Shown: positions 2,136 to 40,069 of the stretch, piece after piece
Layout of the letters: each line of letters opens with the position of its first letter
Position numbering within the stretch: position 1 is the stretch's first letter
NCBI GenBank assembly: GCA_949710005.1
Contig: OX453279.1
Location: 8,432,378 to 8,496,377 of the forward strand
Reading direction: 5' to 3'
Source of the DNA: Ricordea florida
Lineage: Eukaryota > Cnidaria > Anthozoa > Corallimorpharia > Ricordeidae
DNA length: 64,000 nt
The notes under the pieces: model-generated
The model's database searches: none
Seen by the model: only the letters and a program-made list of their open reading frames with translations
Told to the model about the DNA's origin: nothing
Position numbers and translations under genes: made by a program

Positions 2136-5100
2136 GGAAAAGTCCTTAAACGCCAATTGCAAGGGCTTGAAAAGTGAGTTAAAGTTCGTTTGCACGCTTA
2201 GAAATAAAGCAGTTTGACTAACACAATGTCAATTACAAAGAGATTGACTGAAACAACCATATAACGTCATTCACCTTTTTTTTTTCATTTTTAACAGACG
2301 TGAGAAAAAAAATCTCACTGAAGCAGAGTCCAAGGTAAAGTATTTTATAACAATTTCTTTCCATTGAACTTAGAAATTCATCTTTCTTGATCCTCAATAT
2401 GTTTTCGTTGAAGAGAATAAATAGTTTCCAAAGACTGCTATAGCCTATACATAAAAGGTGACCAAGTAGTGAAACTGCTATAGTTGTAAACGTTACACTG
2501 GATGTTTCAATTTTTCCGGATATCTTTTAGAGATTTCCATTTCTTGTTACGTTTAATAAAGAAAAGTATCTTTGCGGCAACTCCAAGTGAGAGCAATAAA
2601 AAACTCAACTACCTCAGCTCTTTAAAATGCAGAGCTCCATCAACCGAGGTAAGAATAAGGGCAAGTTTGGGCTCATATGAATGCAAATATATTATTACCA
2701 TTGTAAAATTCCTCACACTGGCACCCATTAAAATTGCCCCGCTCCTATTGGTTAAATGATCTGCTTTAGGTGCTTGACGCAACAGAAGGGTGGTGGTTTA
2801 GAGTCTCAACGAAGTCTGCTCTTGTATATCAGTTTTTCTAAAAAAAAAAAAGAAAATAAATTTGCTTACATAAGAAAATGCGTAACTACTGCGATGATTA
2901 AATCTTTATGTCAATGCAGTGACATAGCAAGGAGATAATGACTCCTTAACTTATACTGTATATTTTGATTCATTTTTCTTGTTTTGTTTCAGCATGTCAG
3001 CATAACAGATGAAAGAGATCAGTTGTCAAGGTAACAATCAGAGATCAATACAAGTGTCTTCACTGAATCAGTGAAACGAAAACAGAACGGACAAATGGGT
3101 ATGCAGCTCACTCAATGGCCAACATTTATTACCGTAGCCATGATTTCTTTTATTTCTATGCAGTTCCATGATCCAATTGCAAGATGAACTGCAGGGCTAT
3201 AAAGCAAAGGTAAACAACGATATTTTTCTATATGAGTATCGTTATGAGGAAAATCGACAATCGATGGACCGATCAAATTAGCTTATTGCGTTCGCAGAAC
3301 GCCATCATAAATTTGAAAGCCAGAATAAAAAATCGAGATTCTTGGCGACGGACTTGGAAATAGTCTCGCCTCTTGAAAGAACGTAGCGGTCCTATTTTAT
3401 CTTTCATACCCAGGTCTCCTGGGTATGAATGATAAGGTACACATGAATTCAAGATGGCGACAAGGAACACAGCAACTTGCGACCAAATACTTAAATAAAC
3501 TGACTTCTAATTCTTGCTCTCAGTCTTCGTCTTTTCTGAGCGAACAACAAACAACGAATCTGTCAGTGATTTTAATTTGTCATTTTGCTGCCAAGCTGAC
3601 TGATGCAAGCGAACTAATATGATTTCTTTCCAACCTCGATTTTTCAAAAGATTTCTTTTTTAGCTACGTTAGAAATATACGACGAAACAGAAACCTGACG
3701 AGACAGTATAAGGGACATGTTGACGGCGGCAACTGCAAAAGTCGCTAAAGAACAGGGGAGTGGTCAGCCTGAATCTTTCCTGTTTTTAGTCGCAAGTAAA
3801 ACAGCCTGCGCCGTGCGACGAAAATCGAGGCTAAATTAGGTGCGATTTTGACATGTTTAAGGCTGCGCTGGTCCGTAATGGAAACAGATTGATTGATAAA
3901 AAAATGAGGATTTATAAAACCGCATTGAGACTTTCAAGTTTTATTCACGCAATGTTAAGGAAAAATGCATTTAATACCTGGGATTGATGAGAGAGCATTT
4001 TAAAATCTGTGGCTGCGGCTTGAAGTCTCGGGGCATTAAAAAAAATTGCACCTGTACGTCTGCGTTAAAAATCTCCGGGAACTGCCGGGAATATAAAGGT
4101 AAATGAACAATCTAAGTATAAGCAGTGAGGAACAATTTGTTTTTTGTTTCAACGGAGGTTAACTATCATCTACATAGAATTGCCAATCAAAGAGTTTCTG
4201 TTGCCATATATGTTCCCCTAACCATTTCTTCACAAGACAAACGATACACAGTTCAATAAACAATTGCAACAACAACAACAACAACAACAACAACAAAAAA
4301 CTAGTCTTTTTAACCTACAGATCAAACAGCTCAGGGCCTCACTGACAACAATGGAGAACAACGCAGAGGTTCGTTTTCATTTTGCCGTGGTTACTATTGA
4401 AACTCGGGCTTACTTCAGAATGTTGTAAAATGTTACTTTCATATAATTTTTTTTCCCTTTTTTTTTTTCTAAATAATTGTTTTGTTTCTACAGAGCGAGT
4501 TCCAAAAACGCCTGGAATTAGAAAGGTAAATTAGTTGTGCTTTTCAGAGGACGACAAGAGAAAAATAGCATTTTTTATAGTGCAGTCTTTATTCCAAAAA
4601 AGAAACATTAATTAATCCCAACTTTATGTTTATTTATTTATCTATTTTTTTAATGTCACTACAAATGCATTCGTTTGCAAAACAATTAGCTAACAACTAT
4701 TGGACGAGGTTAAGCGAATAAACGTAATCTCGACACTTAAAACTGCTCACTCAATACTAACTAATCCCTAAATATACTAATGGTATAATTACTCAGGTGA
4801 TTATAGAAATTCTTGTGCTCTCATTGGCTGAGAATGGCGTCATACTCCGCTATAAATACCTCTTGCGAGGTAATAAAAGCGGGAGGTCAAATTTTCAAAA
4901 TGGCCGCCTGGCGCTTTGTCGATGTGTCCGAAGAGGAAATTAGTGAAAGAAAATTTAGTGAAAGAAAATGGCATTTCGAGGAATATCAAACACGCCACAA
5001 AGCTCGGAATGACACTCTTCAAAGTTAACATGCGAGGTTGTGCTAAATGTAACAAAGAAACCATTTAAATGCACATGAAAATGCCTGCCTTAGTAAAATC

Positions 5101-6200
5101 AAAACAACTATTAAATATTCGCAACACTTTATTTATCTAGGAACAGAATGGGGAATGATTTGTGCACAGGTCCGTACTCATTTTGCATGCTGTAGCTATA
5201 CTGTTTCTTTTTGCAATAACAAGAAATGTTTACACGTGCATTACCCTAAACAATTCATCTGCTGCATGCATAATGAAGTAGGGACCTGTGCGGAAATCTT
5301 GCCCAGAATGGTTTCAACAACCACTAACTTTGAGGCAATGGAGGTCAACGAGATGAATAAAGGTTTGTCGAAGTTTTTCGTCTCAGTCAGGCGGAAAGAC
5401 GGTACCTATTATAAGATAAACAGTCTGTTGTCCGTGCGAGCGGCTCTCGATCGCCATCTGAAGTCACCGCCTTTCAACAACATTTTGTTTAATTTGTTTG
5501 GGTATTTCTATAATCACCTGAGTTACTATACTGAAACAATTATTAGTCTGATTCGTGAATATTGGTGAATTATTCGCTTAGCCTCGTCCAATAATTGTTA
5601 GCTACTTGCTTTGTAATCAAGTGCATTGGTAACATCGTTTGATCTTGAAGAAAACTTATTTGAACAACTGTTGATATTCTAGAAAGCAGTTTTTGTTAGT
5701 TGAGCGATGCACAATTATTCAACTCAGCTATGTGGAGTCTGTTGATTAGTCAGTGTTTCATGGATCAATTGTTTTCTCTGTAGCCTTTAACATTACATTA
5801 TTATAAAATAATACTCAGGTGATTATACAAAATCGCCCGCTCTGATTGGTTCGCTATCTCGGATTATCAGCCGATAATCACCTCGACGAACAAAATGGCT
5901 GCTAGTCGTTCTTGCTTTTGATAAAATAAATTTTTTTCGTGTTGTCGTATTCCTTTTTTTTAATAGTCACCTCTGTATTTATACTAAAACAATTACATTC
6001 GTCTCAGGCTCAGTGATTATCGGTGAATATATTCACCGAGACGAAGTAAGTGTTTCATTTCGATAAATACCGACACAAAACTATCAACTTTCTTACGCCC
6101 TCCAGTCCAGACAATTATCGCTTACTAATTGTTACATGTCTGATTTCTTTGCAGTACCGTCAACAAATTAAATGATGAGCTTCAGAATCATAAAGCTGAG
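2136..6200 (+). CDS. Coiled-coil gene, exon cluster 1 (7 exons)
   Basis: Exons 2136-2173, 2298-2334, 2993-3030, 3164-3209, 4321-4368, 4494-4525 and 6155-6200 (38, 37, 38, 46, 48, 32, 46 nt). The 2993 exon reads HVSITDERDQLS and pairs with 3164 (SMIQLQDELQGYKAK). The last three make a 42-residue module starting IKQLRASL. The first pair is 25 residues, three short of four heptads, which implies a stutter. Exon 6155 differs from exon 14234 at one base and shares about 330 bp of 3' intron with it, so one is a recent duplicate. The intron between 4525 and 6155 holds a TIR element (4688-5606) and a MITE-like piece. Confidence 0.75.
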
Positions 6201-6484
6201 GTAAATAAGAACTACTTTAATCGGATTAAATTGCGTATCCATAGAATAGCAACAAACATATGGTAAATAAAAACCTTATGCTTTCCCTAACCTTCTGCTA
6301 AGATGAAAATTAATTGTACCTGCCAGACATTTGAAGCCCTGAATTAAAAAATTTGTTCTAAAACAAATATATATATACGCGCAACGTTTGGGAAACATTG
6401 GGTCGCTGACATATAAAGGGGAAGGAGGAAGATATCAAAACGACAAGCCATTTTTATTTCTCTTTTCGACTTAGGATGGCGCAT

Positions 6485-6549
<65 letters not shown>

Positions 6550-6656
6550 AGAAAGTTAATTTGGGAACAGAAATCATCAACTAAGAGAATAAGTGAAAAT
6601 GTGGCTCTAAGGCAATTAGTTGCTAATATATCCCCTCCCTACTTTAACTGTACTTA

Positions 6657-6694
<38 letters not shown>

Positions 6695-9600: not shown

Positions 9601-11293
9601 TGAGATCGTCACCCGAATTACTTGAAATTTTTCCACCTAAATCGATTTTTCCAGCATATCGCCGTACCAAAAATCTCAAAGATATTTTAGCACCATCTAA
9701 ATTTCGTGGGGCAAACCAGGCAGAGAAGGAAATGGGAGGGTGTTTCAAATGTTGTACTCGTTGTGATCTTTGCAAAAATTCCAAGTTTAAAAGCTTTTCC
9801 ACAGACTGAGCCTACAAGATAAATCAAAAATTGTCTTGCTCTGCCAAAAACGTTGTTTACTTGGCCTCGTGTAATAAATGCAAATTGCAATGTGTAGGTT
9901 CTACCACCACAGAATCTAAAGTACGCTTTCCCAATCATAAATCGTCCATGCATACCAACAAAAAGACGTGTGAACTTGCGGTCCATTTTAACTGTACAAG
10001 GCATGAAATTTCCGATACTAATTTTATTGTCATCGAACAAATTACTAACCAAGGTGACGCTGCTTATATTGACAAGTTGTTACAGACTAGAGAGGCCTAT
10101 TAGACCTCCCAGCTATTTACACTTTACCCTCATGGTCTTAATAAAAGACGCGAATTTAGATCTAAAAATCGCGTCCCCTACAATACCAAATTAGACTAAC
10201 TATTGTACACTTATACACTTAGACAGACGTTTATTCTGTCCGCTGACGATCGCCGCAAGGCGTGAAACTCGTGGTTACAGTAAACCAATGCGTCCTTTTT
10301 GACTTCACTACACCGTAGAAAAGCTCTGCTTTATAGCAGCGAGCACTTTTTGCCAAGCAAGACTTCTCTTCAAGTAATTTAGGGTAAAAGTTGATTAACG
10401 TAAAACAGTGCTCAACTAGAAGGGCACTCTGTAGAGCGCATACCTCCGCCCCGCCACATATTGTTGTCTTAAGAGTTTGGATCCACAAATAAGAGCTATT
10501 TGAAGAAAAGTATATCCGATTGAGGAGTAATATTGTTGTTTTTCCCACATATCGCTTCTTCGCCTTCGATAACTTGGAATCAGATGAATGGCATCAAGTT
10601 TCACAACTGTTTTCTACCGTGGGAAACCAAGAAAGCTGATCGGTCAACATTAATTCGCTTAGTAAACAAACCCAATTATCACTGAAATCTCTGTAAAACC
10701 TTGGAAAACTTTCTGATAAAATCGCTCAGCTTGAACACGACAAAAAGTGCGGTGCGATATACAGTCTGGTAGGTTTTTTGCGGTCGTGGAACCAGCCAAA
10801 TAGTATATAACATATACAAAAGTTAGGCGTAAACTGACATTCACGTTTGTTCGAAGCCGTATTATCAAGTGTAGCCCGAGTGAACGCTCCCGAGAGCGTC
10901 TAGTCTGGATCTGAGATCCGGAGTCTAATCCGGATAAATCCCAAATTTTAATCGATTGATCCTGGGTATATTTGAGACCTTTCCACCAAATTTGGTGCAA
11001 ATCCGTTGATTAGTTTTTGCGTGAAACGATTAACAGACAGACAAACAGACAGGCGTGAAAACATAACCTCCTTGGCGGAGGTAATAAATGAACGTAGAGC
11101 AAAGTAGTTGTTGCGGGAGAAAAAAACACACAAAAAAACTACACGTTTATCCCTACAAGCCTGTTTCGTGGTTGCCCACTCGGTTACCCCCTGACGAGTG
11201 GGCAACCACGAAACGGGCTTGTAGGGATAAACGTGTAGTTTGTCTGTGTGTTTTTTTCTCCCGCAACATCAGCACTGCACTGATGAGGCCCAG

Positions 11294-11344
<51 letters not shown>

Positions 11345-12352: not shown

Positions 12353-12390
<38 letters not shown>

Positions 12391-15300
12391 GTATAAATCT
12401 ACTAGCGATCTATCACAAATGCCGCGCTCTGATTGGCTACGCTACCACTATCTATTCTGTGACAGATAGTGAGTAGCGTCGCAGTGTGCTCTTGCTAACA
12501 AAATGGCGGCCGCCCCTTCACGTTTTCGAAGTGTCAGTGAAGAAGATTTAGACAGTTTACTGGTCGAGGCTTTTCCAGAAAAGACAAAGTTTTGAACGAC
12601 TTGTAGATTTATACTAAAACAATTAGATTATTCGCTCTCGATTTCTATCACGCGATAGAAATCTCTAGAAATTCTCTATTGAGCCTGCTATGCCTCAGCA
12701 AATACCGCTTCATGAGACACCTTATCTCTGTAAATAAAATGAACAAGCATTTTAACAAAATAACAAAGAGGACGGAGACAAAAGTGATTTTAAACTGGAA
12801 AAGTTAGCTAATTAGTGAGCTGGCATCAACTGAGCAACGTAAACGTATACTAATTGTTCATCGTTTGCAATTCATCGTAACAGTTTTCCAGTGGGTATAA
12901 GACACAATCTTAATCAGAATAGTATTGATCCTCAGTGTAACATGTCCATCTATGTCTCATTGTGCGCTGCGTTCCCCGAACCACTTAAACGTTCCACGTG
13001 CGCGCATGACAACTGAATCGACGCATAAGTAAAGCTGTATTTGAAGGATTATTTATCTTTTAATGAATCTACAGGTGAAGCAGTTCAGGGCCTTTCTGAA
13101 AACATCAGAAGAGAAAGTGGAGGTTTGTATTATCCTCCTACTATAGCAATACTATTTCTTGGCAAATTACACAGGAATGTCAAGTTTCATATTTTACATA
13201 AATCTCTCTTTACAACGCAGTAAGCCATTTAATATATACTTATATATTGATTGATTTTAACAGAAAGAGCTCCACAGCCGATTGGAATTGGAAAGGTAAA
13301 GTGAATTTATAGGTGAAGCAATAATTTCTTAATTAGCCATTGCAGTGTAAGGAAGCTATTTCTTTCTGGAACATATTTGTTAACTGCAAAGACACTATGA
13401 ATGAGTTCATTTACACAGTTTGTTCCTTTTTTTAATCAGACAAGTATCTGTTGTAAAGTTGAGTTTGGATGCAGCCAATTCCAAGGTAATTAAGCTTTAT
13501 TTGCAATAACATATATGTTAACAGTATTAACAAATTTGACAATTAAGTTTAATTTTAGCAACCAGGTAATTAGCCAATGGTAAATGGCTTTGGTTTTACA
13601 AGACAAGATAAAGATCTTAAATGTTTCTCTTTGTTAATATAATGAGCCTTACCAGTCTTTCGTAGGCCTCATGCAAGCTCTCAAACCTGCTTTCCCGGAA
13701 TAGCGTCCAAGATAAACCGATACTGAATTTGTTTGGGGGAAATTAAAACGTCTCAAAGAAATGTTATTGGAATATTCAGACAGGCTAAGAATAAATGTAT
13801 TGCCTTTTAGCGGAAAATGCATCATGGTTTTGGGACCGAATAAAAGCCAATTAAGAAGCCGACAGGGCTCCATCACTGGCAACATCACAAGAGTGAACAC
13901 AGGTCGCAAATATAGGACCATGTACATCTCTTTGTTAAAACTGTCATACGTTTCTAAAAAAGTGATGGGCTTGAAGAGAAGCGTCATTAAAGGCGGGCAC
14001 CAAGTAAGCAAATGAAACTTTATTTGTTCAAGATATCTTACTTTCTTTTCTTGCAGCTTGTCACCATCACTGATGAGCGGAGTCAGTTGTCAAGGTAACA
14101 CAGAAAGTCATCTAAGTGTTTTGGTTAATGAGTTGGAAATGAAAAATATAATGTTTATTATTTCCCTGAAGGTTCGCATAACGATTGTTTTCATATGGTT
14201 CTTACATGTGTTTGCTTTTGGTTTTTTCGGCAGTACCGTCAACAAATTAAATAATGAGCTTCAGAATCATAAAGCTGAGGTGAATAAGATCTACCTTAAT
14301 AGTCTTAAATTACGTACCTATAGTAAAAAGAACATTTGTTAAAATATCTAATGCTTAATAATATAAATTAGTTCTATGTTCTCACAACGTGGTCACTTGG
14401 GTTGTGGTCGCTTGTCTTCAGTTTAGATGAAAACTGATGGTACCTGTCAGACATTTACACTCTTGAACTCAAAAACAACGAGTTAAGAAGGTTATTGTAT
14501 GCGCATCGTTTGTCTGGGTCGCTAGCATATGCAGGCAAAGGAGGCAGATGTCAAAACGACAACGTCACTTTTATTTCTCTTTTCGACTCAAAGATGGCGC
14601 ACGAATAGATGTATAAATTCACAAGCGAGCCTGCGATACTATAACAGAAAACACCTCATATCACACATTATCTCTGTAAAATTGTTCTTAATTTTCTCAT
14701 CTTCATCATAAAGATGATGATATTAAGAAAAAGGTAATCCAATAATCTTCCTTATTCTGGAATTGAATCAGGCATTTTTCAGGGATAGCTTGTTACCTTG
14801 ATCAGAATAGTATTGATATTTAATTCTTCTTTATTTGTCTTTTCTCTTGTTTTTTTTTTTACAGCTTGTCATCATTACTGATGAGCGGGATCAGTTGTCA
14901 AGGTAACAAGGAAAACACATTAAAATGACAAAAGTGATTTTGTTCAATGAGTTGGTAAATTGGAAAATGAAAATATGTACCGGGTACCTTTTCGCAATGC
15001 CTTTATGGCGTTAAACTTTAAGTAGCAATTATATCCCTTTGATTTGTTCGTAGTTCCGTGAATAAGCTGCAAGATGAAATTGATGGCTTCAAATCTGAGG
15101 TAAACTGAGCCCTAACACCTCACTTGTATATACACTGATTAAACCTTAGATGTTAAGTCTCTTGTAACTGCATCGACTATACATTGCTCGTTAAGAAGGC
15201 GTGGCTAGCGCTCTCCTCGATAAATTAGTTGTTTAGTATCTTCGTATTCGATTCATTGAATCATCCATTTCCTAGAGGTAGGGTGACGTTGTTATCTTGA

Positions 15301-17207
15301 TCAGAATAGCAATGTTCCTTTTACAAATGCTCCAGTGCGTATCGAGCTTTCTAAAATTTTAAAACCTTCAGGTCAAACAGCTCAGGGCTCCATTCCTGGC
15401 AACAGTCCAAGAGTAGTATTTAGCAACTGAGTAGTATTTAGCAGTAACTCAATTTGGTATATAAAAAATCAAGGAAACAGAGCTTTTTATCAAAAAAGTA
15501 GATGAAATTGACTCCTAGCAGTCTAGGTTTTAATATTTTTGTTAGATTTATTATTTTCAATTTGATGATGAGTAGCGTTCCTCAAAAAGACACACAAAAT
15601 CGAAGCGTAGCAAGCGATATCTAATCTACATTGCTGAGAGGCTGTCTTAACATGTATATATCCCGAGATTGTTTCTTGTCTTTTCACAGCTTGGCATCAT
15701 TATTGATGAGCGGAATCAGTTGTCAAGGTAACAAAGAGTAACATATAAATGGTTTGGTTCAATAAGTTGGTGAATAGGAGCGGAAGAAAGATAAAGATAT
15801 CCGGAAGCGGATGAAGATATAAAGTCCCTCAATGACTACACGCTATTTTAGCTTGCTCTTAATTCACTTATTTGCAGTTCCGTCAATGAGCTGCAAGAAG
15901 AAATTCGCGGCCATAAATCTAAAGTAAGCTTAACCCAAACCGGCCTCACTTAGCCTTAGATCTTTAGACCCCTAAACCTTTATCATCGACCACTAGAAAA
16001 AGGCTTGCGAAGCACTCTCCTCAGTGATTGAGTTGTTTTCGGGCAAGCTAGTTGTGAAGGAAATGTCCTTCGTATTTGATTTTTTAAGTCAACATTTAAG
16101 TGAGTGAAATGTTATGTTATTAGGAATAGATAAAAATAAACATTTATGAAAAAGCCAATGCGGTTTTTATGTTTTCTTAAACGTAGAACGTGATCAACAG
16201 ATTTAGAATGGTTTTCGTACAATCTACATTGATAGATCGAAATAAGCGCTGGATGAATTCCTCTGAGAACTCTAAACTATGAAATGTTCTCTTAGATCAA
16301 GACAACCGGGTTTAATTAAGAAATAAGAAAATGAAACGAAAAAAAAAATTCTGTAAGTTTGAAGCTATTTGATGGTACATTAAAAGTGAGATTCTTTTCC
16401 GAGAACATCAATTCACCTTTGAGAAATAAAAGAACACCTTGCCTTTAAGTGTGTCCTCTTCTTCTTTGAGTCGAAAATCTTAAATCCATGGTGATCGTTT
16501 CTCATGCTTTTGTGCTGATGGAACCCCATGAAATAGAAATTATATAATATTCCAATTAATTAAGTCCATATTTTGAAATGTATGCAGCAAGTTTTAGCTT
16601 CATCATATATACAAATTGAATAATACTATGCTTCAGCCAACAGAAACTGAATTAATTCTGCTGGTACCCAGATGATATATTTTCTTTCCTTTCCACAGCT
16701 TATCATTGTCACGAACCAAAGAGATCAGTTATCAAGGTAACAATTTCATTGGTTGATAACAAAAAATTAAGGCAAAATCGCTTTCCTTGTATTCACTTCT
16801 CATTTAATGTTAAATCCATATAAAATCGCATTCATTTTCATTTTCTTGGCACAGTTCCTTGAATAGACGTCAAGGCGAAGTAGACAGCCTGCAAGCAAAG
16901 GTAATTATTAAAAGCGTTTCCCTACTATGCAATATAAAAGAAAGTAAGAAAGGTCGGGCTAATTCTTATCCATCCAAGTCAAGTGTACAACATATATATC
17001 TTTGGAATATATCCTTTGGTCAATGAGACATTAATTTTAACTTGGGCGTAGGTACATAGAAAGGCGAGGACTTACTCATTGAGGAGGAAATCAAAATGAT
17101 TCCACTTAATTTTCAAGCCTTTAATCATGTGAAGCAAAAATGGTCAACTCACAGTAAGTAATGAGAGACGTTGGATTTGACTATACTATAGTAAGCAAGT
17201 AAGTTAC

Positions 17208-17240
<33 letters not shown>

Positions 17241-22742: not shown

Positions 22743-22779
<37 letters not shown>

Positions 22780-28862: not shown

Positions 28863-28897
<35 letters not shown>

Positions 28898-29555: not shown

Positions 29556-29616
<61 letters not shown>

Positions 29617-32600
29617 TAAAAACTCTCGGCTCGATTTACTCGGGCTTGCGAGCCACGTGGTCTGACCGAAAGCGACACGATTAGTAACCTCGCTTCGCGA
29701 GGAAAAATGTTTGATTAAATAATTGGGTAAGGTGCAATGAATAAGTATGAAAAATAGACAATAACTACCTATCTTATTTTTTTCATAAAAAGGAATCCAT
29801 TTTAACATATCAAATAATTGTACAGATGGGCCAGGCGAATCTCTGCCGGCAGACAGCGTAACCCTAGCCGCTCTTTTTGCAGCTTCAATACTCTATTCAA
29901 AGAATCTTTATGACAACATGCCTGGATAACACTAGCATAGGTTATTATAGGATGAATTATCGAATTGTAATATAACTGTCTAATTGTAATGTAACTGAAC
30001 TGTCTATAACTGTCTTTATATGTCAGGCTTTAATTTCACAGCTGCTTAGTTTTGTGCATAACTGCGATGATCAATTAATGTCATTTCATGTTAATCCGCA
30101 GTTCAAGTATATGGTTTTTCATATATTCATTTGCATCATAACTGTCTATGGCTAAGAGGCAGATAAACTCTGATTTTTTCTGAGAAGCGCTCTACGTTGA
30201 GAAAGCGTCTTACAAATTTTATCAACATGTTGACTAAAAGATGAGTGACAATCAGTGTTATAGCAAAGAGAATATTTCCCGAATTATGCTGAATACCAAA
30301 TGGTTATCTCATTCCTTTTCAACAATAATCAATATTTGGTGTAACTATTTATACTGCCCTTTTCATTTTTCAGTTTCATCTTAATTTACTATCCTCAAAA
30401 TCCACATATTGTATTGATCGTGTTAGAACTAATTAAGGTAAATTTAGTTTACATTTCACTGGTCCTTCTGTTTGGAATAGTTTGGATGAAGAACTGAAAA
30501 GTAGTTCTCTACAAGAGATGATGAACAAATTCCCATCTTCCAGCGTTTAATGCTAGCTTCGTACTGTCAATTTACTTATTATTGTTCAAAAATAATAATT
30601 GACAAATACTATACTACTATTTGGTATTGTTTTTCTTTTCTTTTTTTTTCTCTCCTCCATTTCTTGTTTTTCCTTTGTACATTACAACCCAGAAATGCAA
30701 GTTTAATTTATACTATTCTGAGTAGCTATTTGCCTGGTATAATAACTTTATTCTGTTTTTGTAAAACTCTTTTAATGTGGCAAATAAATTTACCAACTAA
30801 GCTAACCGCCGACCGGTTAGCTCAGTTGGTAGAGCACGGGACTACCGTGCGGAGGTCGCGGGTTCAAACCCCGGCCGGACTCAGGGAGAAAGTGCTGCCT
30901 TTGTAATGACATCTGCTAATGGTTAGACTTTCGAGTCTTCTAGGATATTGACGATAACCCGTAGGTCTCGTCTCACAACCCTTGTTAATGATAACTTAGT
31001 GGGACGTCAAAAGAACCCACGCACTGATCGTAAAGAGTAGGGGACTTAGTTCCCGGCGTTGTGGTCTGGCCTTTCCTTTGACAGAATTGTCCAAGAAAAA
31101 TAAGTATGTTCTATGTTCTATGCATGTTGTTGTTTTTGCTGCTGTAGAACAAACGCGCAAGGAAGAAACCTGTTCACGTTATCAAGTTATTGTCTGAGTG
31201 GGAATTTATATTTTTTCTTTAATTTTCTTATAGTATGATCACATTTTCAGTGAAAGAAACGCATTGTCAAGGTAAGATGAATGGTTATTTTCAGCTGCAA
31301 GTGGTTGGTTAATTTTTTAGACGATAACTAAGTATATTTGCCAGCTGTAATATACTAACTTTTGTTTCGCGTTTTCACAGAACCCTTAACACACTGAGGG
31401 ATGAGATTCAGAAAGTGAAAATGGAGGTAAATAAACGAATTTCCTACTCCTTATTTAGAATCTCAAACTACTAATAAGATGACCAGCAATAATTTCGCTG
31501 AGATTCAAACACCACTCTTTAGGAGTTATTCTACTTGTCTTTGCATTTTTGTTGAACCCCGGTCAAGGGTAATTTGTCTTTTTCTGCAGTCGATCTTTGA
31601 GCGGTCAGATCTTACACCGAACTGAAATTATGTCTCTGCAATTCTTCAATTTGTTTTATTATCCCTTCTTTCAGAATGATAAGAATAGTGACATTTTTCT
31701 CATCATTGAAAGGTAAATACATCTTTTTTTTTTCAATAACTACACACCGAAGCTGAAACTTGCGACAAGACATTTTACAGTTTTGTCCATAGGAACTCAG
31801 CATTTAAGTAGAAGCGAGGCTGGAGGTGGCCTTGCTTGGTTACAAACCTCCTCGCCTTTCACGTGCAAACCATAATATTTAACAATTATTCGCCGAAGGC
31901 GAAGTGGTTATCGATGAATAATTGTTTTAGTACTAGAAATACGACTCCCGCAAAAACCTCGCGAAGCTAGTTTTTGAAGATGTCACCATGCTTTTATATT
32001 TTATTCTCTAGTTTTTTTTTTATATTTTATATTTTATTTTTTATATCAGGGTAATTCCCATTATTTTATTTCTTATTCTGTTTTTGGTACACAATTAGTG
32101 ACACCTGGCGCAAATTACACGATCAGTATACCGCTCAACAAAGTGCTTATAAAAATTGAATTGACCTTCATTTAGCTCTTTCACTGCCACTGAGATTGCA
32201 CCAGAGGGAATAGAAGTAAAATTATTTATTATCTTGACAGGGAATACAGAGTCGATGAAGTATCACAATAATATTCACTTAACACAAATTGAAAATGACT
32301 GTGAATCTTTTGCAGGTGAAATCTTGAAGAGTTGATATGGATGCTTGTGTTTACCACAGTGTAAAAACCTGTGTTTTTTTTCTTTAGTTTTATTTTCTTA
32401 GTCTCTACTGCCTTGTCTTCTTTGTCTTCTTGGTTATAATTGTATGAGATTCATTGTAAGAAGAATCTTCTGATTATATATTTTATTGTCCACTGCAGTC
32501 ATTATTTCATTCCCGGGTAACCACAATTGAGAGCATTATGAATAGTGCATGTTTTAATTTGTGTACTCTTTTCAGTTGCAATGGTACCCCCAGAGGTAGA

Positions 32601-34933: not shown

Positions 34934-34965
<32 letters not shown>

Positions 34966-37900
34966 CAATAAGTAGAACAATAGGAGAAGCTGCGCGTTAA
35001 TTACAATAGGTGAGGAAGGCGGATCTATTAGAACAAAGGGATGTGTGAAGTAAACTGTCTAAACTAAAAACTAAAAACTAAAAGCGTAGGGGCGTAAAAC
35101 AATAGTTCAGTATTGTATAAGGTGAGCGTCAATTAATTGCTGTGTTTGATAATATAAAGTTTTTGATAATATAAATTTTTCCTGTAGCAGAAAAACTTTA
35201 TATTATCAAACACAGCAATTACAATCTCCTGAACAAACGATCTGAACTTATTTCCAAGTGCCGACATGAAAACAAGTTTTACTTAAAGAACAATTGACGC
35301 TCACCTTATACAATACTGAACTATTGTTTTACGCCCCTACGCTTTTAGTTTTTAGTTTTTAGTTTAGACAGTTTACTTCACACATCCCTTTGTTCTAATA
35401 GATCCGCCTTCCTCACCTATTGTAATTAACGCGCAGCTTCTCCTATTGTTCTACTTATTGTAAATGTATATATATATATATACTAGCTGATAGGGTTTTT
35501 CTTCATTAAATCTGCCTGATGAGTGCGTAAGCACGAAACTCAGAGTTGCAGGGAATCATGTGTGTTTTCATTTAGTAACCCAATTCTAAATATATATATA
35601 TATACATATATAAAAACTCCCGGCTCGATTTACTCGGGCTTGCGAGCCACGTGGTCTGACCGGAACCGACACGATTAGTAACCTCGCTACGCTCGGCCTT
35701 CGGCCTCGCTTCGCGAGGAATAAATACACAGGTGATTATTTCAAGAAAAAGAAAAGAAAAAGTATTGAACAACACGAAAAAAGTTTTATTTCATCAGAGG
35801 CGCGCGTTTCAGTTAAAAAAAAGACTGGCAGCCATTTTGTTCGTCGAGGTGATTATCGGCTGATATATAATCCAAGATGGCGAACCAATCAGAGAGTATT
35901 CATACTAATTACATCTACAGAACAGGAAGGTTTATAACAAAACAAGGTCACCTTCAAAGGCCAGGGTACTAAGCACACAACTGTAGTACAAACCTGCACA
36001 TATCATTCAAATCTTCGAGACTTTGAATTAGTAATGTAAATATTGCAAATCCAAATCACTTTGCATCATTGCTTGTTTTCCTCGATAATAGTAAAACTGA
36101 TAAAAAGTAAAGAGATAGCATTTAAATTCAAAGCTCTTAGTTTATTTAACTAAGTAAAGCTAGTTGTTGACTACGATCAATGGACATGTGTTGTTACACG
36201 AAGTTACTGCTATTTTATAAGACTCATGAGGAGAGAAACCGTTACTCGTGCCAGTCTTTCACTACTGGAACTTAGTTTCTTTTAGTTTCAGGTCTCTTAG
36301 CTCTCACAGCGACTGTTATAACTTTGAATAATATGCCATCAAAAGATGAAAAACACTACACAAATACGCTAGCAGTGGAAAAATGATTACCATAAGATGG
36401 TTACAAAGAAAAAATCATTAATTTCATGACTCCTATTGTACAATCCTTCTCAAACCCAATGCTTTTCATTATTAACAGGGAGGTCACAGGTCTTGGCAAA
36501 GATATCGGTGCTGCTATGAAAGAGGTAAACTTGCACTGCATTAACTAGAAAGATATTAAAGATGAATTAGTTTATAAATGCGGGTTTTCCTTCGTAGAGA
36601 CGAATACCAGTGCATTGATTCTTTCCCACAACTAGATCCAATTCTTGCCACACCCTAGACGCAACTTTAACAATGACTGTGGTTTTATGTTTGATTTTAG
36701 GAAAATTTGTCACCGAGATACCCGAGATCTAGATTAAAAAAAGAAAGAGGAACCCATCACTAATCTAGTCTACTAAATAAAAATACTGAAAACAATCCTC
36801 GCGATTAGAGATGCAACCTAACCTTGAACATTGATACTCAGCATTACTGCTGTTGATATGAATAAAATACTCGCAACAAAATCTTATCAACTTTCAAGCA
36901 GGTTCTCAACTCTTGCGATATTACGAAGAAAAGTCCGCAATTATTTTTTACCTACCGACTGTGTAAGCCATCCTTTGCCACGTACAATGGTTTTATAAGG
37001 ATTGCTAATAAATTTAAAGAAGCGAAGGAGGCCGTGAATACGATTGGATGTTATTGGCTTATAATTATATACAAGAAAAATATTTCAGTTGTAACAACAA
37101 AAACTTGCAAGGGGGTGGCAATTTTATTTGCTGACAGCTTTATTCTAACCGCGACTTTTTGTTCGAAATTTTTTTACCCTAGGTTTGACTGTTCAGTAAG
37201 ATTCCACAAAATGTGTGCCAGGGCAACAGGGCTGAAGTTTCTTGGCCGACTTAAACCAGCCTTTTTGGTGTTTTCTTCATCTTATTCCTTCCATCCCCCT
37301 TTGGTTAACCCCCTAATACAGAATGTCTAAGTTCGTATTCCGCGTTTATTTTCTTGGTGACGAACATTTCTTTCCGAGATTCGTATGTTGCAAATTAAAA
37401 GAACAGCATTGTTCTCATTTGTTTACGAATTCGGTTTGAATTAATGAATTATAGCTTTGCCGAACTTCTGCGGGTGTTGATTTAACGATTTCCTTTTTCC
37501 TTGATTCTAGTTGTTTCAGGCCATGGGCGAAAAGGAGGAATTATCCAGGTAATACGGTCAAACATTTATTGTAGACTTATATATTTTGCTGATAAAGTCA
37601 GCTTAATCACCAAAATCGACTTCTTTCTGAAGTTCACATATAGAAAAAGGCTTGAAAACAACTCCCAGATATCTTCGAAAGTGAAATGGTTCCGTAAATA
37701 TTGTATGCGTATATAATTATGCTACAGGGGATCTTTGCTGTGTGTCTTTGTATAAACATCAATGTTTGTCACGATCAGAGGTAAAATGGTAATAACCTTA
37801 TGTTTCCTTGCGTATAGAGTGATCTTTTTTTTTCTCTTGTATCAGAACCAATGCTCAGCTCTTAACGGATATGGAAGTCGCTCGTCTGAAGGTAAATATT

Positions 37901-40069
37901 TTTTTCCAATTGAAAGAAACGGATGATTGTCCTCTGAAATACCAAACATGCATCATACTGTACATAGCGTTTTTTCTCCTCCACCCCTCCCCCTCCTTGT
38001 CCCCCTTTTCTTTCTCCACCTTTTTCCCCTTCTTGAAATCCTGAGGTAATCTTAAAAAGCTTCAGATCCTCAGTGTAACGCTTTACAGTCATATTCCCAG
38101 TGTTTTGGGGTTTGAGGAGAAGTTAGCCGATTGGAGTTAACATTGCTTGTTACAAACTTCCTCCAGTTCCAGGAACAAAGTATGTCATGTAAGAGAGAAG
38201 AAAAAAAATCAGAAAATACTAATTTATGTACAACTTCAACTTTAATTTGGAGGCCAGTACCGTAGACGCACTACTGTGTAATTGCCTGCTCTTGTCAAGC
38301 TGGTGTGACTCATCTGAGGCCCACGTGAATGCTGTTTCCAATGCAAGGCTCTGAAGCCTTAATCATTGGCAATCTGATGAGTTGATTTCACCCAAAAGCC
38401 ATGCTGGCTAAATGTTTTCGAACGACTACTTGTTATGAGCAAAATTGTAGCTTTCTCTCACACTTTTTTTAGGGGGAACAAGAAATTACCAACATGGGGA
38501 AGTAAGTACCTCATCGATGTTTTTCTTCTTTTGACCTAGTTAGTTGATTGCATCAATTTCTTGGAATCAAATTTCCAGTGCTTATTTCATGGCCATTGAT
38601 TTTAGTAATAGGTCTATTACATGTGGGGTTAGTTAGCGTCATAGGAGAGCCTGGAAAAGCACATTAAGTATCGATACCCAATGACAGCTTTTGCATTTAA
38701 TTAAGGGTTTTCTGAGTGTGATATGTAATGAAAGGTTGTAAATCTTGCCTTCAGTATTGCTTTGAAGCGGCTGCCTTCATTGTTTTCATTAAATTACAAG
38801 CTAAATAAGCAAATGACAACTCACAACTTTATAAACTGTCCAATTAACAAGACTTTTTTCATTTTCTGCGTAGCACCATCAGCACCCTCCAGGAAGAATT
38901 TGAAAAACTAACTACAGAGGTAAATAATATTTCTCAATTAAGCGAAGGATGATTCTATTATTTTGAGGTCCACTAGACTAGATAATAAGATACGGACATG
39001 AAGAGGGGACAGGGATTGGAATGAATCAACAAGAGTTATTGAAGAGAATTCTAAAACAGGTAGTTTAACAGGCTTAGGGACCGGTCATTATTTATCGCCT
39101 GGGGGGAGCGGAGTATTTTTGTTGCTACATCGTAGAAATTACCTGATCCCCCCGTAAAGTATTTAGTTTTTTAATGATCCCCCCTTATCGGTAGTGGAAG
39201 ATGTCATGGTCCCCCCCCCCCCCCCTCATCCTCTCCCAGCCACCGACAAATGACAGTTTTAATGTGCAAGTGATATCTATAATGGTACTGACCTGAAATT
39301 CCATTTTTTTGGTCTGATCCCCCTTTACGCCTGTTAATTACGGCTGATCCCCCCCTCAGTTCTTCAGATAACCATCTGATTCCCCCCTAAATCCTCCGCT
39401 CCCCCCCAGGCGATAAATAATGACCTGTCCCTTAGTCGACATATTGAGTATCAACTAGTGAGGAAAAAAGCGTTTCAAATCCTGAGTGAATAGGTTTGTC
39501 GATATTTTTTAACGCATCTGCTACAATCTTGGCCAAAATTATCTGGGACACTAAAAGGGATGACCCGCCTCGGATCCAGATATGTGAAGTGTACAAGAGA
39601 ATGAGCTCGAAAAACATAAATCGCCGTTTTTTGCTGTTATTTTAACCACCCCCCTCCCCCTATCAATGTTACTAGCCACTGCCATCATTCATGGCAACAT
39701 TTAATGTAAGCGGAGGTGGGGGGATGGGGGGAGGAGAGATTCTTCCTTTGGGTTCACTTTTTTTGCAGTGTCCCAAAGCTTTTGGCCAGGATTTTAGTTT
39801 TGAAAACCGTCTTTCATATATAATAAAGACACTAACCACAAGCCCTTTGCTCAATTGCTTTTGCTGATTCTTTGACCGAAAATAAATTGTCGCAAACCTC
39901 CGTCACAGTCACATGCGTTAATCACCTTTATGGAGGAGCAGCTGCATGTTTATTCCATTTATGACGCGTATCTCGTTTCCTTTAGAATGAGCGATTAGCA
40001 AGAAGAGCAAACCGAGGGATCTTGGGAAGGATGCGCCAATTAGCTCGGTTTGGCCGTCGAAGACACTGA
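2136..40069 (+). CDS. Multi-mini-exon coiled-coil protein gene (5' incomplete)
   Basis: At least 27 exons join in one frame without a stop (1158 nt, 385 codons plus TGA). Every intron read begins GT and ends AG, and all junctions are phase compatible (0/0, 0/2 or 2/0). Most exons are 38 or 46 nt; a 38+46 pair encodes 28 residues, exactly four heptads, and a 48+32+46 trio encodes 42, six heptads. Hydrophobic residues fall at 3-4 spacing through both units, so the product should be a long coiled coil. It ends in a basic tail of 27 residues with nine arginines. No catalytic domain, signal peptide or membrane segment is seen and I do not recognise the family. Introns carry most of the repeats of the window. 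The first exon and promoter are not identified; the 5' part lies upstream or was missed. Sure of the exon series, unsure of gene identity and of which exons are always used. Confidence 0.8.
4266..4297 (+). repeat. (CAA)n microsatellite
   Basis: About ten CAA units in an intron of the coiled-coil gene. Confidence 0.95.
4688..5606. mobile_element. TIR element carrying DUF3504-like coding remnants
   Basis: Inverted repeats of 35 bp with two differences: TAGCTAACAA..TATTGGACGA at 4688 and its reverse complement ending 5606. Inside are an ATTGGC box (about 4827), a short first exon starting MAAWRFVDVSEEEIS (4900-5028) and a second coding piece at 5155-5568. It sits in an intron of the coiled-coil gene. 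About 0.9 kb, too short to be autonomous. Confidence 0.7.
5155..5568 (+). pseudogene. DUF3504/KIAA1958-like (Crypton-related) fragment
   Basis: Contains NKGLSKFFVSVRRKDG followed by YYKINSLLSVRAALDRHL and KSPPFNN, the N-terminal signature of DUF3504-type proteins that descend from tyrosine-recombinase transposons. Only about 60 residues are domain-like; the rest of the frame is intron or spacer. Family assignment is from recall of the motif and is moderate. Confidence 0.5.
5806..6090. mobile_element. MITE, GATTATCGG family
   Basis: Palindromic ends, inner AGGTGATTAT, CTGATTGG box and ATGGCTGC. Related copies at 35722-35915 and 41203-41475 lie in reverse orientation. Confidence 0.6.
6823..6849 (-). 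ncRNA. Hammerhead ribozyme core, PLE family A
   Basis: Same core as 36-62, in the inverted 5' terminus of the intact PLE. Confidence 0.82.
6947..8362 (+). CDS. PLE reverse transcriptase plus GIY-YIG endonuclease (5' truncated)
   Basis: 471 codons, open upstream to about 6911. RT motif A WDVVSMFPNID starts just before the given start, motif B is HGTALGPKNACSYADL (about residues 59-72) and motif C YRDD is at 96-99, so both metal-binding sites are kept. The N-terminal RT region before motif A is missing. A CX2CX4CX2C linker (C318-C329) precedes a GIY-YIG-type nuclease: VIYLVSCKKCRLQYVGS with RVRFRNHK and a later TKEAYW glutamate. PLEs use these two activities for target-primed copying; enzymes related to telomerase RT. 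The frame is intact but lacks its N-terminus, so the product is probably inactive. Confidence 0.9.
   Translation: MVSMFPNIDNKLGLTAVRKALNARENKIPSTSCILEAVKICLKSNHSVFKENFFLQIHGTALGPKNACSYADLAMGEIDLKAKFSGPIKPSLWWRYRDDVFDLWQQGLPALHQFTDYINSLYPTIKFELVFSERELHVLDLTLHLVEGFIRTDVYSKPTDSHLYLPPSSCHPKHVFKAIPFGVATRLKRNCSEETFLAERTAEYKGYLVNQGYPPKLVDDQFSKASTISRIDLLRQRGKQSRKLFPFVLTFNPNLPNVSSIIRKHLLILQSNPKLKELFPQGSIIPSFRRTKNLKELLAPSRFKTADEGQTIQPNNGCFKCERNRCDLCRNFFVESKSFLSFRTCRKYTIHSRLSCDSKNVIYLVSCKKCRLQYVGSTTTDFRVRFRNHKSAMLTNKTTCEVAVHFNKIPHSLDDFEFQCIDQVQAPNDLDEIDRFLITKEAYWSAQLFSMAPHGLNKRKEFHSKNRICYN
8363..8946 (+). other. PLE family B 3' UTR
   Basis: Repeated at 11441-11890 (minus), 11896-12156, 21313-21895 (minus) and 22076-22646. 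A 66-codon open frame recurs in copies at 8417, 21842 and 22117, but it holds no domain and is taken as UTR that happens to stay open because the copies are young. Confidence 0.6.
8947..8973 (+). ncRNA. Hammerhead ribozyme core, PLE family B
   Basis: CTGACGA, stem II GGTC-TAA-GACC, GAAAC, GTT. Confidence 0.82.
9175..9300 (-). mobile_element. PLE terminal fragment with antisense hammerhead
   Basis: Directly after the (TA)n that ends the previous PLE. Reverse complement reads CTGATGA, stem GGCC/GGCC, GAAAC. The same terminus, cut in the middle of the stem, recurs at 11266-11293 next to another (TA)n. Confidence 0.6.
9191..9218 (-). ncRNA. Hammerhead ribozyme core, GGCC class
   Basis: Minus strand: CTGATGA, stem II GGCC-CAGAA-GGCC, GAAAC, AGT. 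Confidence 0.78.
9366..10270 (+). pseudogene. PLE fragment: RT C-terminus and GIY-YIG with two stops
   Basis: One frame from about 9366 to 10199 aligns with residues 195-471 of the intact PLE ORF. TGA at 9807-9809 interrupts it, and TAG at 10101-10103 replaces the Trp of the EAYW motif. The CFKC-CTRCDLC zinc linker and YLASCNKCKLQ nuclease start are still readable. A hammerhead core of another sequence class follows at 10243-10270. Confidence 0.8.
10243..10270 (+). ncRNA. Hammerhead ribozyme core, CGCC class
   Basis: CTGACGA, stem II CGCC-GCAA-GGCG, GAAAC, TC; follows the broken PLE ORF. Confidence 0.78.
10430..11090. mobile_element. Short TIR-like repeat with CCTCCGCC ends
   Basis: Left ACCTCCGCCCC near 10442, right CCTTGGCGGAGGT near 11072; inside the right end lies AACAGACAGACAAACAGACA. 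Such ends are very common in marine invertebrate genomes. Class not known to me. No coding content. Confidence 0.4.
11111..11266. repeat. Large palindrome with outward hammerhead (PLE ends)
   Basis: Arms of about 70 bp, from GTTGCGGGAG to its reverse complement, around a loop near GGTTACCCCC. The right arm contains a complete hammerhead core; the left arm has the stem and GAAAC but the CTGACGA box is lost at the junction. Interpreted as two fused PLE termini. Confidence 0.7.
11191..11217 (+). ncRNA. Hammerhead ribozyme core, GTGG class
   Basis: CTGACGA, stem II GTGG-GCAA-CCAC, GAAAC, GGG, inside a palindrome. Confidence 0.72.
11280..11293 (+). ncRNA. Truncated hammerhead (5' half)
   Basis: CTGATGA and the first stem II strand GGCCCAG, then (TA)n. 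The 3' half is absent. Confidence 0.55.
11407..11433 (-). ncRNA. Hammerhead ribozyme core, PLE family B
   Basis: Same core as 8947-8973, left arm of a palindrome. Confidence 0.82.
12157..12183 (+). ncRNA. Hammerhead ribozyme core, PLE family B
   Basis: Right arm of the same palindrome; identical core. Confidence 0.82.
12388..12690. mobile_element. MITE, TTTAGTATAAATCTACTAG family
   Basis: Starts in (TA)n; carries CTGATTGGCTACGC and a mini-exon ATGGCGGCCGC reading MAAAPSRFRSVSEEDLDSLL then stop. A copy in reverse is at 52650-52970. Confidence 0.65.
13075..16900 (+). CDS. Coiled-coil gene, exon cluster 2 (11 exons, tandem 28-residue units)
   Basis: Exons 13075-13122, 13264-13295, 13440-13485 form a second 42-residue module (48+32+46 nt). 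Then four 38+46 pairs follow: 14057-14094/14234-14279, 14865-14902/15054-15099, 15690-15727/15878-15923 and 16699-16736/16855-16900. The 38-nt exons encode variants of LVTITDERSQLS and the 46-nt exons variants of STVNKLNNELQNHKAE; the serine codon is split AG|T across the intron. The repeats are clear products of tandem exon-pair duplication. A decayed 48-nt-type exon lies at 15372-15413 between the second and third pair: its acceptor is kept, the donor is lost. Confidence 0.82.
17188..17275 (+). repeat. (GTAA)n microsatellite
   Basis: About 20 units with a few changes. Confidence 0.95.
17983..18136 (+). repeat. Two-copy tandem repeat, about 77 bp
   Basis: TGGACAAAA..TTAAGCT.CGTG to CGCCAGTTCG twice, roughly 80% alike. 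Confidence 0.75.
18572..21058 (+). repeat. 2.5-3 kb repeat, copy 1
   Basis: Starts CTAGAAATACGACTCCTGCA and ends ACCTTTAAAATATAG then (TA)n. It holds an unknown open frame (19181-19510), an (ATT)n tract, and near the right end ATGGCGG followed by TTGCCAG|GTAACC, an apparent exon with donor. No known class. Confidence 0.75.
19181..19510 (+). CDS. Unknown ORF of the 2.5-3 kb repeat
   Basis: About 109 codons; an AG acceptor (TTTTCAG) just before SVAMV suggests an exon starting near 19211. Contains KIPLPSKEMPYQQKCEIQCH and a cysteine-rich end. Related frames at 26717 (frameshifted) and 32578. Not recognised; it could be a captured host exon or repeat-own protein. No known start or promoter. Confidence 0.3.
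   Translation: MHVLICVLFSVAMVLPVVDRKIPLPSKEMPYQQKCEIQCHNIRKKLGVKQLDSTKTLNKGLVIGSADCIVCGCAIFRSYHKNNTCKKELLKYSYVEKDCCTTYSCKKIM
21286..21312 (-). ncRNA. Hammerhead ribozyme core, PLE family B
   Basis: Left arm of the 21110-22745 palindrome; identical core. Confidence 0.82.
21897..22106 (-). pseudogene. PLE ORF C-terminal fragment
   Basis: Identical in reading to the end of the intact PLE ORF from EFQCIDQVQAP to SKNRICYN stop. The first residues (MDCFKAQTHIDAY) are from the palindrome junction. Confidence 0.85.
22647..22673 (+). ncRNA. Hammerhead ribozyme core, PLE family B
   Basis: Right arm of the 21110-22745 palindrome; identical core. Confidence 0.82.
22781..22889 (+). repeat. GC-rich TA-flanked module, copy 1
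   Basis: CTCGGCTCGATTTACTCGGG ... GGCCTTCGGCC ... CGCGAGGAA, about 110 bp, set in (TA)n. Joined on its right to a short palindrome leading into repeat copy 2. Confidence 0.8.
22951..25980 (+). repeat. 2.5-3 kb repeat, copy 2 (interior deleted, carries insert)
   Basis: Same start and end as copy 1. The part with the open frame is missing; the (ATT)n part and right third are kept but diverged. It contains the TIR element at 23354-24387 and a (TATG)n tract near 25175-25205. Confidence 0.7.
23354..24387. mobile_element. TIR element, CATGATTGCCACAG ends
   Basis: Left CATGATTGCCACAG, right CTGTGGCAATCATG; inner CCCTGACTTTTTCC / CCTGACTTTTCCCTG repeats. It splits repeat copy 2 at a site equal to GAATCTAGTGC in copy 1, with TAG(T) duplicated. 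A further hairpin CCTCATGGTATG lies at 23959-23990. Coding content not recognised. Confidence 0.6.
26005..28860 (+). repeat. 2.5-3 kb repeat, copy 3
   Basis: Directly follows copy 2. Its open frame is shifted after KKIGG (about 26815). Right end has ATGGCGGAAATTCAGCAG and the same splice-donor-like GGTAACC. Confidence 0.75.
28905..29013 (+). repeat. GC-rich TA-flanked module, copy 2
   Basis: Same unit, between the end of repeat copy 3 and a PLE palindrome. Confidence 0.82.
29141..29167 (-). ncRNA. Hammerhead ribozyme core, PLE family A
   Basis: Left half of the tails-only palindrome. Confidence 0.82.
29197..29223 (+). ncRNA. Hammerhead ribozyme core, PLE family A
   Basis: Right half of the tails-only palindrome, 29 bp from its mirror copy. 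Confidence 0.82.
29450..29559 (+). repeat. GC-rich TA-flanked module, copy 3
   Basis: Same unit; GGTCTGACCGAAAGCGACAC variant. Confidence 0.82.
29618..29704 (+). repeat. GC-rich TA-flanked module, copy 4 (deleted)
   Basis: Lacks the TACGCTCGGCCTTCGGCC hairpin; next to copy 3 across (TA)n. Confidence 0.8.
29705..29960 (-). pseudogene. LINE RT tail fragment (minus)
   Basis: LKLQKRAARVTLSAGRDSP then LFDMLKWIPFYEKNKIGSYC, a typical CR1/L2 RT C-terminal tail. Cut at 29704 by the GC-rich module. Confidence 0.65.
30420..30550 (+). pseudogene. LINE RT tail fragment (plus)
   Basis: GKFSLHFTGPSVWNSLDEEL, close in pattern to the tail at 49711. One in-frame stop before it. Confidence 0.6.
30811..31125 (+). 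mobile_element. tRNA-derived SINE
   Basis: Head with box A TTAGCTCAGTTGGTAGAGC and box B GGTTCAAACC, followed by a 200-bp body (ends GTTGTGGTCTGGCCTTTCC) and a TTCTATG tail. The acceptor stem does not pair and the anticodon loop lacks U33, so this is not a working tRNA gene. Pol III promoter boxes look intact. Confidence 0.85.
31234..31712 (+). CDS. Coiled-coil gene, exon cluster 3 (3 exons)
   Basis: Exons 31234-31271 (YDHIFSERNALS), 31381-31426 (RTLNTLRDEIQKVKME) and 31675-31712 (NDKNSDIFLIIE), lengths 38, 46 and 38 nt, the same phases as the upstream pairs. The third exon needs a 46-nt partner, which is met by 36479-36524 about 4.8 kb downstream. They lie 14 kb after cluster 2; the gap is filled by repeats, not by other genes. 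The third exon is the weakest of the set because its sequence is less like its relatives. Confidence 0.68.
31870..31932. mobile_element. MITE end remnant
   Basis: AACAATTATTCGCCGAAGGCG ... AATAATTGTTTTAGTA, the terminal part of the GATTATCGG family, cut by the repeat that starts at 31933. Confidence 0.5.
31933..34732 (+). repeat. 2.5-3 kb repeat, copy 4
   Basis: Same layout; best kept open frames (32545-32820 and 32868-33074). Inserted in a MITE end. Copy lies in an intron of the coiled-coil gene. Confidence 0.75.
32545..33074 (+). CDS. Unknown ORFs of the 2.5-3 kb repeat (copy 4)
   Basis: 32545-32820 is the copy of the 19181 frame. The second piece lies after an acceptor CTGTTACAG (about 32933) and reads KQAKYPYPTTEDYAIFDYMK, ending at a TGA after SQRY. 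Both may be exons of one small gene. No domain recognised. Confidence 0.3.
34875..34900 (-). ncRNA. Hammerhead ribozyme core, family E
   Basis: Minus strand: CTGATGA, stem II GTGC-GTAA-GCAC, GAAAC, TC. Confidence 0.8.
35516..35541 (+). ncRNA. Hammerhead ribozyme core, family E
   Basis: CTGATGA, stem II GTGC-GTAA-GCAC, GAAAC, TC; mirror of 34875-34900. Confidence 0.8.
35612..35720 (+). repeat. GC-rich TA-flanked module, copy 5
   Basis: Same unit, right of the family E PLE palindrome. Confidence 0.82.
35722..35915 (-). mobile_element. MITE, GATTATCGG family, partial
   Basis: Contains CCATTTTGTTCGTCGAGGTG and CCAATCAGAG as in 41390-41450. One end is joined to a GC-rich TA module. Confidence 0.6.
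35921..36478. other. Intron of coiled-coil gene, nothing recognised
   Basis: No exon, palindrome or coding match seen. Confidence 0.45.
36479..40069 (+). CDS. Coiled-coil gene, exon cluster 4 and C-terminus (6 exons)
   Basis: Exons 36479-36524, 37511-37548, 37846-37891, 38473-38501, 38874-38919 and terminal exon 39986-40069. Lengths are 46, 38, 46, 29, 46 and 84 nt. The 29+46 pair encodes 25 residues, again a stutter of three residues. The last exon begins NERLARRANRG, is strongly basic and ends RRRH before TGA at 40067-40069. A basic tail after a coiled coil could bind nucleic acid, acidic membranes or act as a nuclear signal; this is inference only. No clear polyadenylation signal was assigned. 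Confidence 0.75.
39075..39435. mobile_element. MITE, C-rich, 38-bp TIRs
   Basis: Ends GTCATTATTTATCGCCTGGG and its reverse complement, flanked by CTTAG on both sides. The interior repeats TGATCCCCC several times and holds a run of about 17 C. Lies in the last intron of the coiled-coil gene. Confidence 0.72.

Follow-up and report, generated by a model that had tools for sequence, protein, structure and literature searches.

A window of 64,000 nucleotides (C8:8432378-8496377, in a genome of 538 Mb on 48 contigs) very likely holds the 3' part of a real gene. Its product is best read as a long coiled-coil rod that ends in a basic 27-residue tail, would apparently be cytosolic and evolves in length by whole units. 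The exons, their open frame, the heptad register, two relatives on the same contig and the differences in unit number among the three genes were all obtained by computation. We presume that the gene is transcribed and that its product would dimerise; the units would then serve to set the length of the rod, as a spacer or a ruler. The window gene belongs to a family whose members probably work and whose exon layout suits the geometry of a coiled coil. Such a gene design is surprising, and the chicken BG genes may be regarded as a precedent for it.

Mini-exons of the window and their frame

Between positions 2136 and 40069 of the window, an AG precedes all 27 exons, a GT follows each of the first 26, and a TGA closes the last. 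When joined, the exons give 1158 nt, or 385 codons and a stop, in a single open frame, and every exon that a sequence-only reading of this DNA had placed in that frame was found. Most of the exons fall into few length classes, namely 46 nt (11 exons), 38 nt (nine), 48 nt (two) and 32 nt (two), with single exons of 37, 29 and 84 nt. The start of each unit is in phase 0 (13 of 13).

All of the exons lie on the plus strand. Unit 1 (25 aa) consists of exon 1 (2136..2173, 38 nt, GKVLKRQLQGLEK), which aligns with a 32-nt trio exon of P1, one of the relatives described below, and exon 2 (2298..2334, 37 nt). Unit 2 (28 aa) joins exon 3 (2993..3030, 38 nt, HVSITDERDQLS) to exon 4 (3164..3209, 46 nt). 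Unit 3, a hybrid trio of 42 aa, is made of exons 5 (4321..4368, 48 nt), 6 (4494..4525, 32 nt) and 7 (6155..6200, 46 nt, pair-type), and unit 4, also of 42 aa, of exons 8 (13075..13122, 48 nt), 9 (13264..13295, 32 nt) and 10 (13440..13485, 46 nt). Units 5 to 11 each encode 28 aa with a 38-nt exon followed by a 46-nt exon: exons 11 and 12 (14057..14094 and 14234..14279), 13 and 14 (14865..14902 and 15054..15099), 15 and 16 (15690..15727 and 15878..15923), 17 and 18 (16699..16736 and 16855..16900), 19 and 20 (31234..31271 and 31381..31426), 21 and 22 (31675..31712 and 36479..36524), and 23 and 24 (37511..37548 and 37846..37891). Unit 12 (25 aa) is formed by exon 25 (38473..38501, 29 nt) and exon 26 (38874..38919, 46 nt). 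The last exon, exon 27 (39986..40069, 84 nt including the TGA), encodes the 27 aa of the basic C-terminal tail. The units of 28 residues (38+46) and 42 residues (48+32+46), each beginning and ending in phase 0, are thus present as they had been described. The wider statement that the exons encode exact heptad multiples holds for 10 of the 12 coil units. The exceptions are the two 25-aa units, 1 (38+37 nt) and 12 (29+46 nt), together with several N-terminal units upstream of the window.

Exon chains were assembled by phase-consistent dynamic programming, using splice weights set by us and a crude score for coil composition. The best chain across 2001-40100 scored 133.3 with 32 exons (the real ones and fillers), compared with a mean of 7.3 (sd 4.4, maximum 22.7) for 60 dinucleotide shuffles in 2-kb blocks, 13.9 for the minus strand of 2001-40100, and 4.6 and 3.3 for the remaining window. 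Right-phase exons of the 38-, 46-, 48- and 32-nt classes numbered 25, against 0-2 per shuffle in the same number of shuffles (60). Because the free chain also takes spurious fillers, some of them inside transposons, we use it as a test and not as a gene model.

The window holds several other features. Pfam gave nothing at E<=0.01 for an open frame of 725 codons (44124-46301, plus strand). A genome search with it listed 13 nearly full-length places, its own included, at 98-100% identity, with one 100% copy on contig C13, so the frame is probably part of a mobile element that is young and has no name in Pfam. An open frame with a GIY-YIG domain (6905-8362, plus strand) is presumably a Penelope-like element, and another, broken one was recognized by reading at 9354-10150. 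The region 56372-62982 on the minus strand contains exons of an ABC transporter, which we take to be of the ABCC type, with ABC_tran found in two of the frames scanned. A tRNA-like stretch at 30810-30890, also recognized by reading, is perhaps a tRNA-derived SINE. Elsewhere in the genome, GFP-family matches number 61, with none in 14 control genomes; 57 of them form a large cluster on contig C11, where several may be pieces of one gene. Such matches would be expected of an anthozoan genome, probably that of a coral.

Two relatives and the upstream part of the gene

A first genome search for relatives returned 60 matches at E<=10. The best of these (E 0.006) was a coil on contig C3 that contains stops, and the other coil matches mostly showed 16-36% identity and lay on other contigs. 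Exon matches on C8, at 9.05 and 9.12 Mb, had E-values of 0.27-1.84, and we chose them as relatives on account of their identity (48-89%) and place. These relatives form an inverted pair, tail to tail, about 0.6 Mb from the window gene on the same contig. The P1 model (C8:9026.96-9059.16 kb, plus strand) runs from ATG to stop and comprises 57 exons that encode 828 aa. For P2 (C8 about 9161-9103.5 kb, minus strand), the stretch covered contributes 62 exons, or 902 aa, in a frame open to the stop; the first exon of P2 lies outside that stretch, and one base of it was supplied. All internal borders of both models are GT-AG. The main collinear blocks of P1 and P2 are 85-97% alike, with introns included and gaps counted. 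DNA searches of the genome at E<=0.001 yielded three 3' ends and three 5' blocks, a threshold at which distant copies could be missed. Exactly 5000 N make up each of three N stretches in the DNA examined, one of them at C8:9069878-9074877.

For 18 of the 27 exons (3-7 and 15-27), a one-to-one partner in P1 could be assigned, in each case of equal length; exons 1, 2 and 8-14 were left out because of length differences or because they belong to the multi-copy part. The matched exons agree at 674 of 789 bases (0.85) with zero indels, and the six intra-pair introns compared with P1, one of which hardly aligned, showed 52 gaps in 738 aligned bases at an identity of 0.84. Since the intron identity is close to that of the exons, the contrast between exons and introns lies in indels and not in substitutions. 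Between the window gene and P1, dN is 0.135 and dS is 0.267 (dN/dS 0.51), while controls shifted in frame by one and two gave dN/dS of 0.64 and 1.23; the comparison with P2 gave 0.55 over 221 codons. For P1 against P2, a dN/dS of 0.90 (553 codons, 31 differences) gives no sign of protein-level constraint. Across the exons of this pair (C8:9026-9161 kb), pS is 0.020, which looks below the divergence of the intron-including collinear blocks, and splicing signals within mini-exons or gene conversion may account for this low synonymous difference.

The gene was first taken to be 38 kb long, but our model spans about 63 kb (C8:8.409-8.472 Mb), starting about 23.3 kb upstream of the window, and has two relatives; the window exons make up only its 3' part. 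In the upstream DNA we modelled ten further exons; counted from the window, they begin with an ATG at -23304 and reach to about -6298. The predicted upstream protein begins MACSSTSGEDPLAALSSQEG... and continues as coil, and its N-terminal units measure 32, 26, 45 and 26 aa. The 5 kb directly upstream of the window reads N, so the junction between the two halves of the gene, and with it the full frame, is presumed. At an upstream 97-nt exon, GG stands in the acceptor place where AG is expected, and an in-frame AG lies 6 nt further on. The next exon but one, at -6343, is 47 nt long versus 46 in P1 and P2. This +1 shift, next to a run of seven A, is perhaps an assembly error or a young lesion, and might be compensated within the N stretch. 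The 5' half of the window copy may be damaged. Within the window, 15372..15413 (plus strand, 42 nt by manual count, no GT donor) is a probable dead 48-type exon and relic of a lost trio, a call based on the match of 15363-15388 to exon 5 and its flank (92%, E 3e-6). A second suspected relic near 13865 was unsupported by the similarity check.

Mini-exons are short and some of their borders are weak, so one might read the chain as a patchwork of AG...GT pieces with no gene behind it. However, the shuffles, the minus strand and the remaining window give nothing comparable, and the exon plan is repeated in two relatives, in which the same borders recur; on these grounds we consider chance exons and pseudo-exons ruled out, with a probability close to nil. 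A different question is whether the window copy is a young pseudogene with a 3' half that is still intact, leaving P1 and P2 as the working genes. Its upstream frame shift and lost acceptor, its transposon-filled introns and the probable dead exon would all fit such a history. Against it, the shift lies beside a homopolymer, the lost acceptor has an in-frame substitute, and 385 codons and 53 splice dinucleotides are intact at a dS of 0.27 from P1. In a neutral simulation, for which we assumed 0.12 changes at each site, roughly half of dS, none of 5000 runs kept the 53 splice dinucleotides and the frame, with averages of 11.9 of 53 splice dinucleotides lost and 5.5 stops gained, although selecting exons with intact borders flatters this figure and the splice-site count. 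We judge a decaying window copy to be rather unlikely and a functional gene to be the better reading.

Heptad register and length of the array

We ran COILS (MTK matrix, window 28) on the joined 385 codons, the prediction that the sequence-only reading had called for. A total of 356 residues reached P>0.5, far above the 200 shuffled proteins (mean 52, maximum 157), and the residues with P<0.5 lie in part of unit 10 and in most of the tail. Units 2-11 of the window gene start at heptad position a, while units 1 and 12 enter the register at d. Most units of the relatives behave likewise: 17 of 18 full pair and trio units in P1 and 19 of 20 in P2 start at a (26-aa units excluded), which bears out the proposal that the register is kept across units. 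Independent of any matrix, hydrophobic residues made up 0.68 of a and 0.88 of d positions in 28 pairs, 0.77 and 0.65 in 20 trios, and at most 0.24 elsewhere; these units are related copies and not independent samples. The trios have two exceptions, d18, which is Glu in 17 of 20, and a22, which is Arg in 15 of 20. Save for these two positions, the heptad pattern is continuous and its a and d residues are hydrophobic.

The two 25-aa units differ in kind. Unit 12 fits a three-residue loss, a stutter, and its 29-nt exon is found in all three genes. Unit 1 resembles a trio that lacks a visible first exon and keeps the other two; we had considered it a simple stutter and dropped this idea, as the P1 alignment places it at the end of a trio.

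Taken as a mechanism, a family of three genes on one chromosome-size contig encodes its rod with two kinds of phase-0 unit, the 28-aa pair (38+46 nt) and the 42-aa trio (48+32+46 nt). Pairs and trios often alternate, which gives a super-repeat of 70 aa, and each unit is predicted to run from heptad a to g. In this register, the 46-nt exons of pairs and trios alike start in an f codon and end at g, so these exons should be exchangeable between the two kinds. Because the units run from a to g, duplication or loss of DNA together with its introns would step the rod by 28, 42 or 70 residues, and the gain or loss of a unit would leave the hydrophobic seam intact. At 0.1485 nm per coiled-coil residue, such steps correspond to about 4, 6 and 10 nm.

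The three genes differ in length accordingly to their unit number. Between shared anchors the coil measures 168 aa in the window gene, 280 in P1 and 378 in P2, equal to 24, 40 and 54 heptads, where the P1 value rests on the omission of two exons and becomes 308 aa (44 heptads) when they are included. The values 168, 280 and 378 are all multiples of seven, in agreement with the earlier suggestion that gain or loss of units shifts the coil by whole heptads. In the central part of the relatives, P1 has three copies of the 70-aa super-repeat of trio and pair, and P2 has four. The window gene has one full copy and one pair, and we read this lone pair as having lost its trio.

The hybrid unit 3, in which the 48+32 of a trio is joined to a pair-type 46-nt exon, shows one such change. 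P2 keeps a 46-nt and a 38-nt exon between the parts of the hybrid, a stretch that is missing in the window gene, where a repeat at 5806..6041 (86% like 41241-41482, inverted) occupies the place. In P1, the sequence of that 46-nt exon is followed by AT where P2 has the GT donor. The P1 model omits this exon and the following 38-nt exon, which keeps the frame and produces the same joint as in the window gene; since the free chain of P1 bridged the place with filler exons, the exon skip is our reading. The missing 46+38 crosses a unit border yet costs exactly 28 aa. Other parts are less regular. The 48-nt exon encodes 16 aa and the 32+46 exons encode 26 aa, so that only their sum is divisible by seven. 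After its first two exons, P1 has units of 39, 56 and 26 aa, and only the 56 fits heptads; the P2 model is without one 48-nt exon present in P1, a difference of 16 aa. The heptad rule describes the core array and not every change.

Most units derive by copying from two founders, so the frequent lengths of 28 and 42 aa represent few independent cases. The heptad multiples could be a by-product of copying a 28-aa and a 42-aa founder, with no selection for register in the exon structure. The pairs do look copied from one founder and the trios from another, and units of 25, 26, 39 and 45 aa exist along with the predicted 16-aa loss. The 46+38 loss, which comes to 28 aa even across a unit border, speaks the other way, though equal exon phases alone would favour that outcome; moreover, an out-of-register unit is expected to be purged from a coil, which makes selection after copying hard to separate from the copying itself. 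We give this explanation a little under an even chance. Alternatively, the array could be an alternatively spliced cassette, with cells setting coil length by skipping units. All 13 units start in phase 0, and skipping the P1 46-nt exon with its AT donor together with the next 38-nt exon would keep the frame and yield the joint of the window gene. However, the free chain of P1 used fillers at that place, the skip being our own interpretation, and the differences observed are at the DNA level, as reported for chicken BG1. We consider a cassette unlikely, and return to unit gain and loss in the DNA as the preferred account of the length differences.

Known systems and what the exon plan would mean

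Titin PEVK, nebulin and triadin have tandem arrays of small in-frame exons by which a rod or spring becomes longer or shorter, and these exons are not known to be coiled-coil heptad units. A closer likeness is found in the chicken BG genes, relatives of butyrophilin at the MHC B locus, for which published work describes a cytoplasmic coil made from tiny exons, mostly of one heptad (21 nt, a few of 18 or 24), an exon number that varies among genes and alleles and is attributed to unequal crossing-over, and hybrid genes within the multigene family (PMC5043582, PMC5938342, PMC4046983). The two systems share a coil whose length changes by whole coding units, seen here as 24, 40 and 54 heptads in three models. 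They differ in that BG exons have a split codon and a true heptad spans two exons, whereas the units here comprise two or three exons, run from a to g and start in phase 0; the BG coil uses 21-nt exons, and the window gene mainly exons of 46, 38, 48 and 32 nt. BG proteins are also described as having an Ig-V domain and a membrane span, unlike the P1 model, which is nearly all coil. In the first 162 residues of P1, we saw no hydrophobic span by reading and found no Ig-V domain, and the best 25 of 33 Pfam families at E<=1 for this segment were all below cut-off and coil-like. By its exon sizes and by this segment of P1, the window gene would not belong to the BG family, and the likeness appears to be one of design, not of descent. 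In the schistosome micro-exon genes (MEG), too, long introns separate short exons (3-81 bp) at regular intervals; they are described as coding for secreted proteins, and the abstracts consulted mention no heptad coil.

Searches for a named family gave coil matches. Among the best 25 of 61 Pfam families at E<=1 for the 385 residues, Cep57_MT_bd (37.4, cut-off 31.3) and RILP (35, cut-off 24.8) pass, while APG6_N (39.4) falls below its cut-off of 45. These coil-family matches lie in the repeats, and we interpret the two that pass as generic coil matches. Similarly, a PDB search returned seven weak matches (best E 0.0011), which we attribute to coil composition. Because all of these are read as generic coil, no named family was accepted. 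A literature search covering the top matches among open-licence papers yielded no report of such a cnidarian gene that we recognized.

More speculatively, exon structure and register might be locked to each other, with unequal crossing-over and exon skipping acting together to ratchet the length of a protein ruler by whole heptads, perhaps producing isoforms of unequal length from one gene; we hold this idea to be doubtful. The array itself would represent a second case, apparently unrelated to the BG genes, in which exon units match coiled-coil geometry. Exon units of this kind would make possible the stepwise evolution of rod length without loss of register. Additionally, a gene class with exons of 25-97 nt, as in these models, is invisible to searches for long open frames. 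Since the anchors are fixed and 24, 40 and 54 heptads lie between them, the three copies would offer a natural series for tests of selection on coil length.
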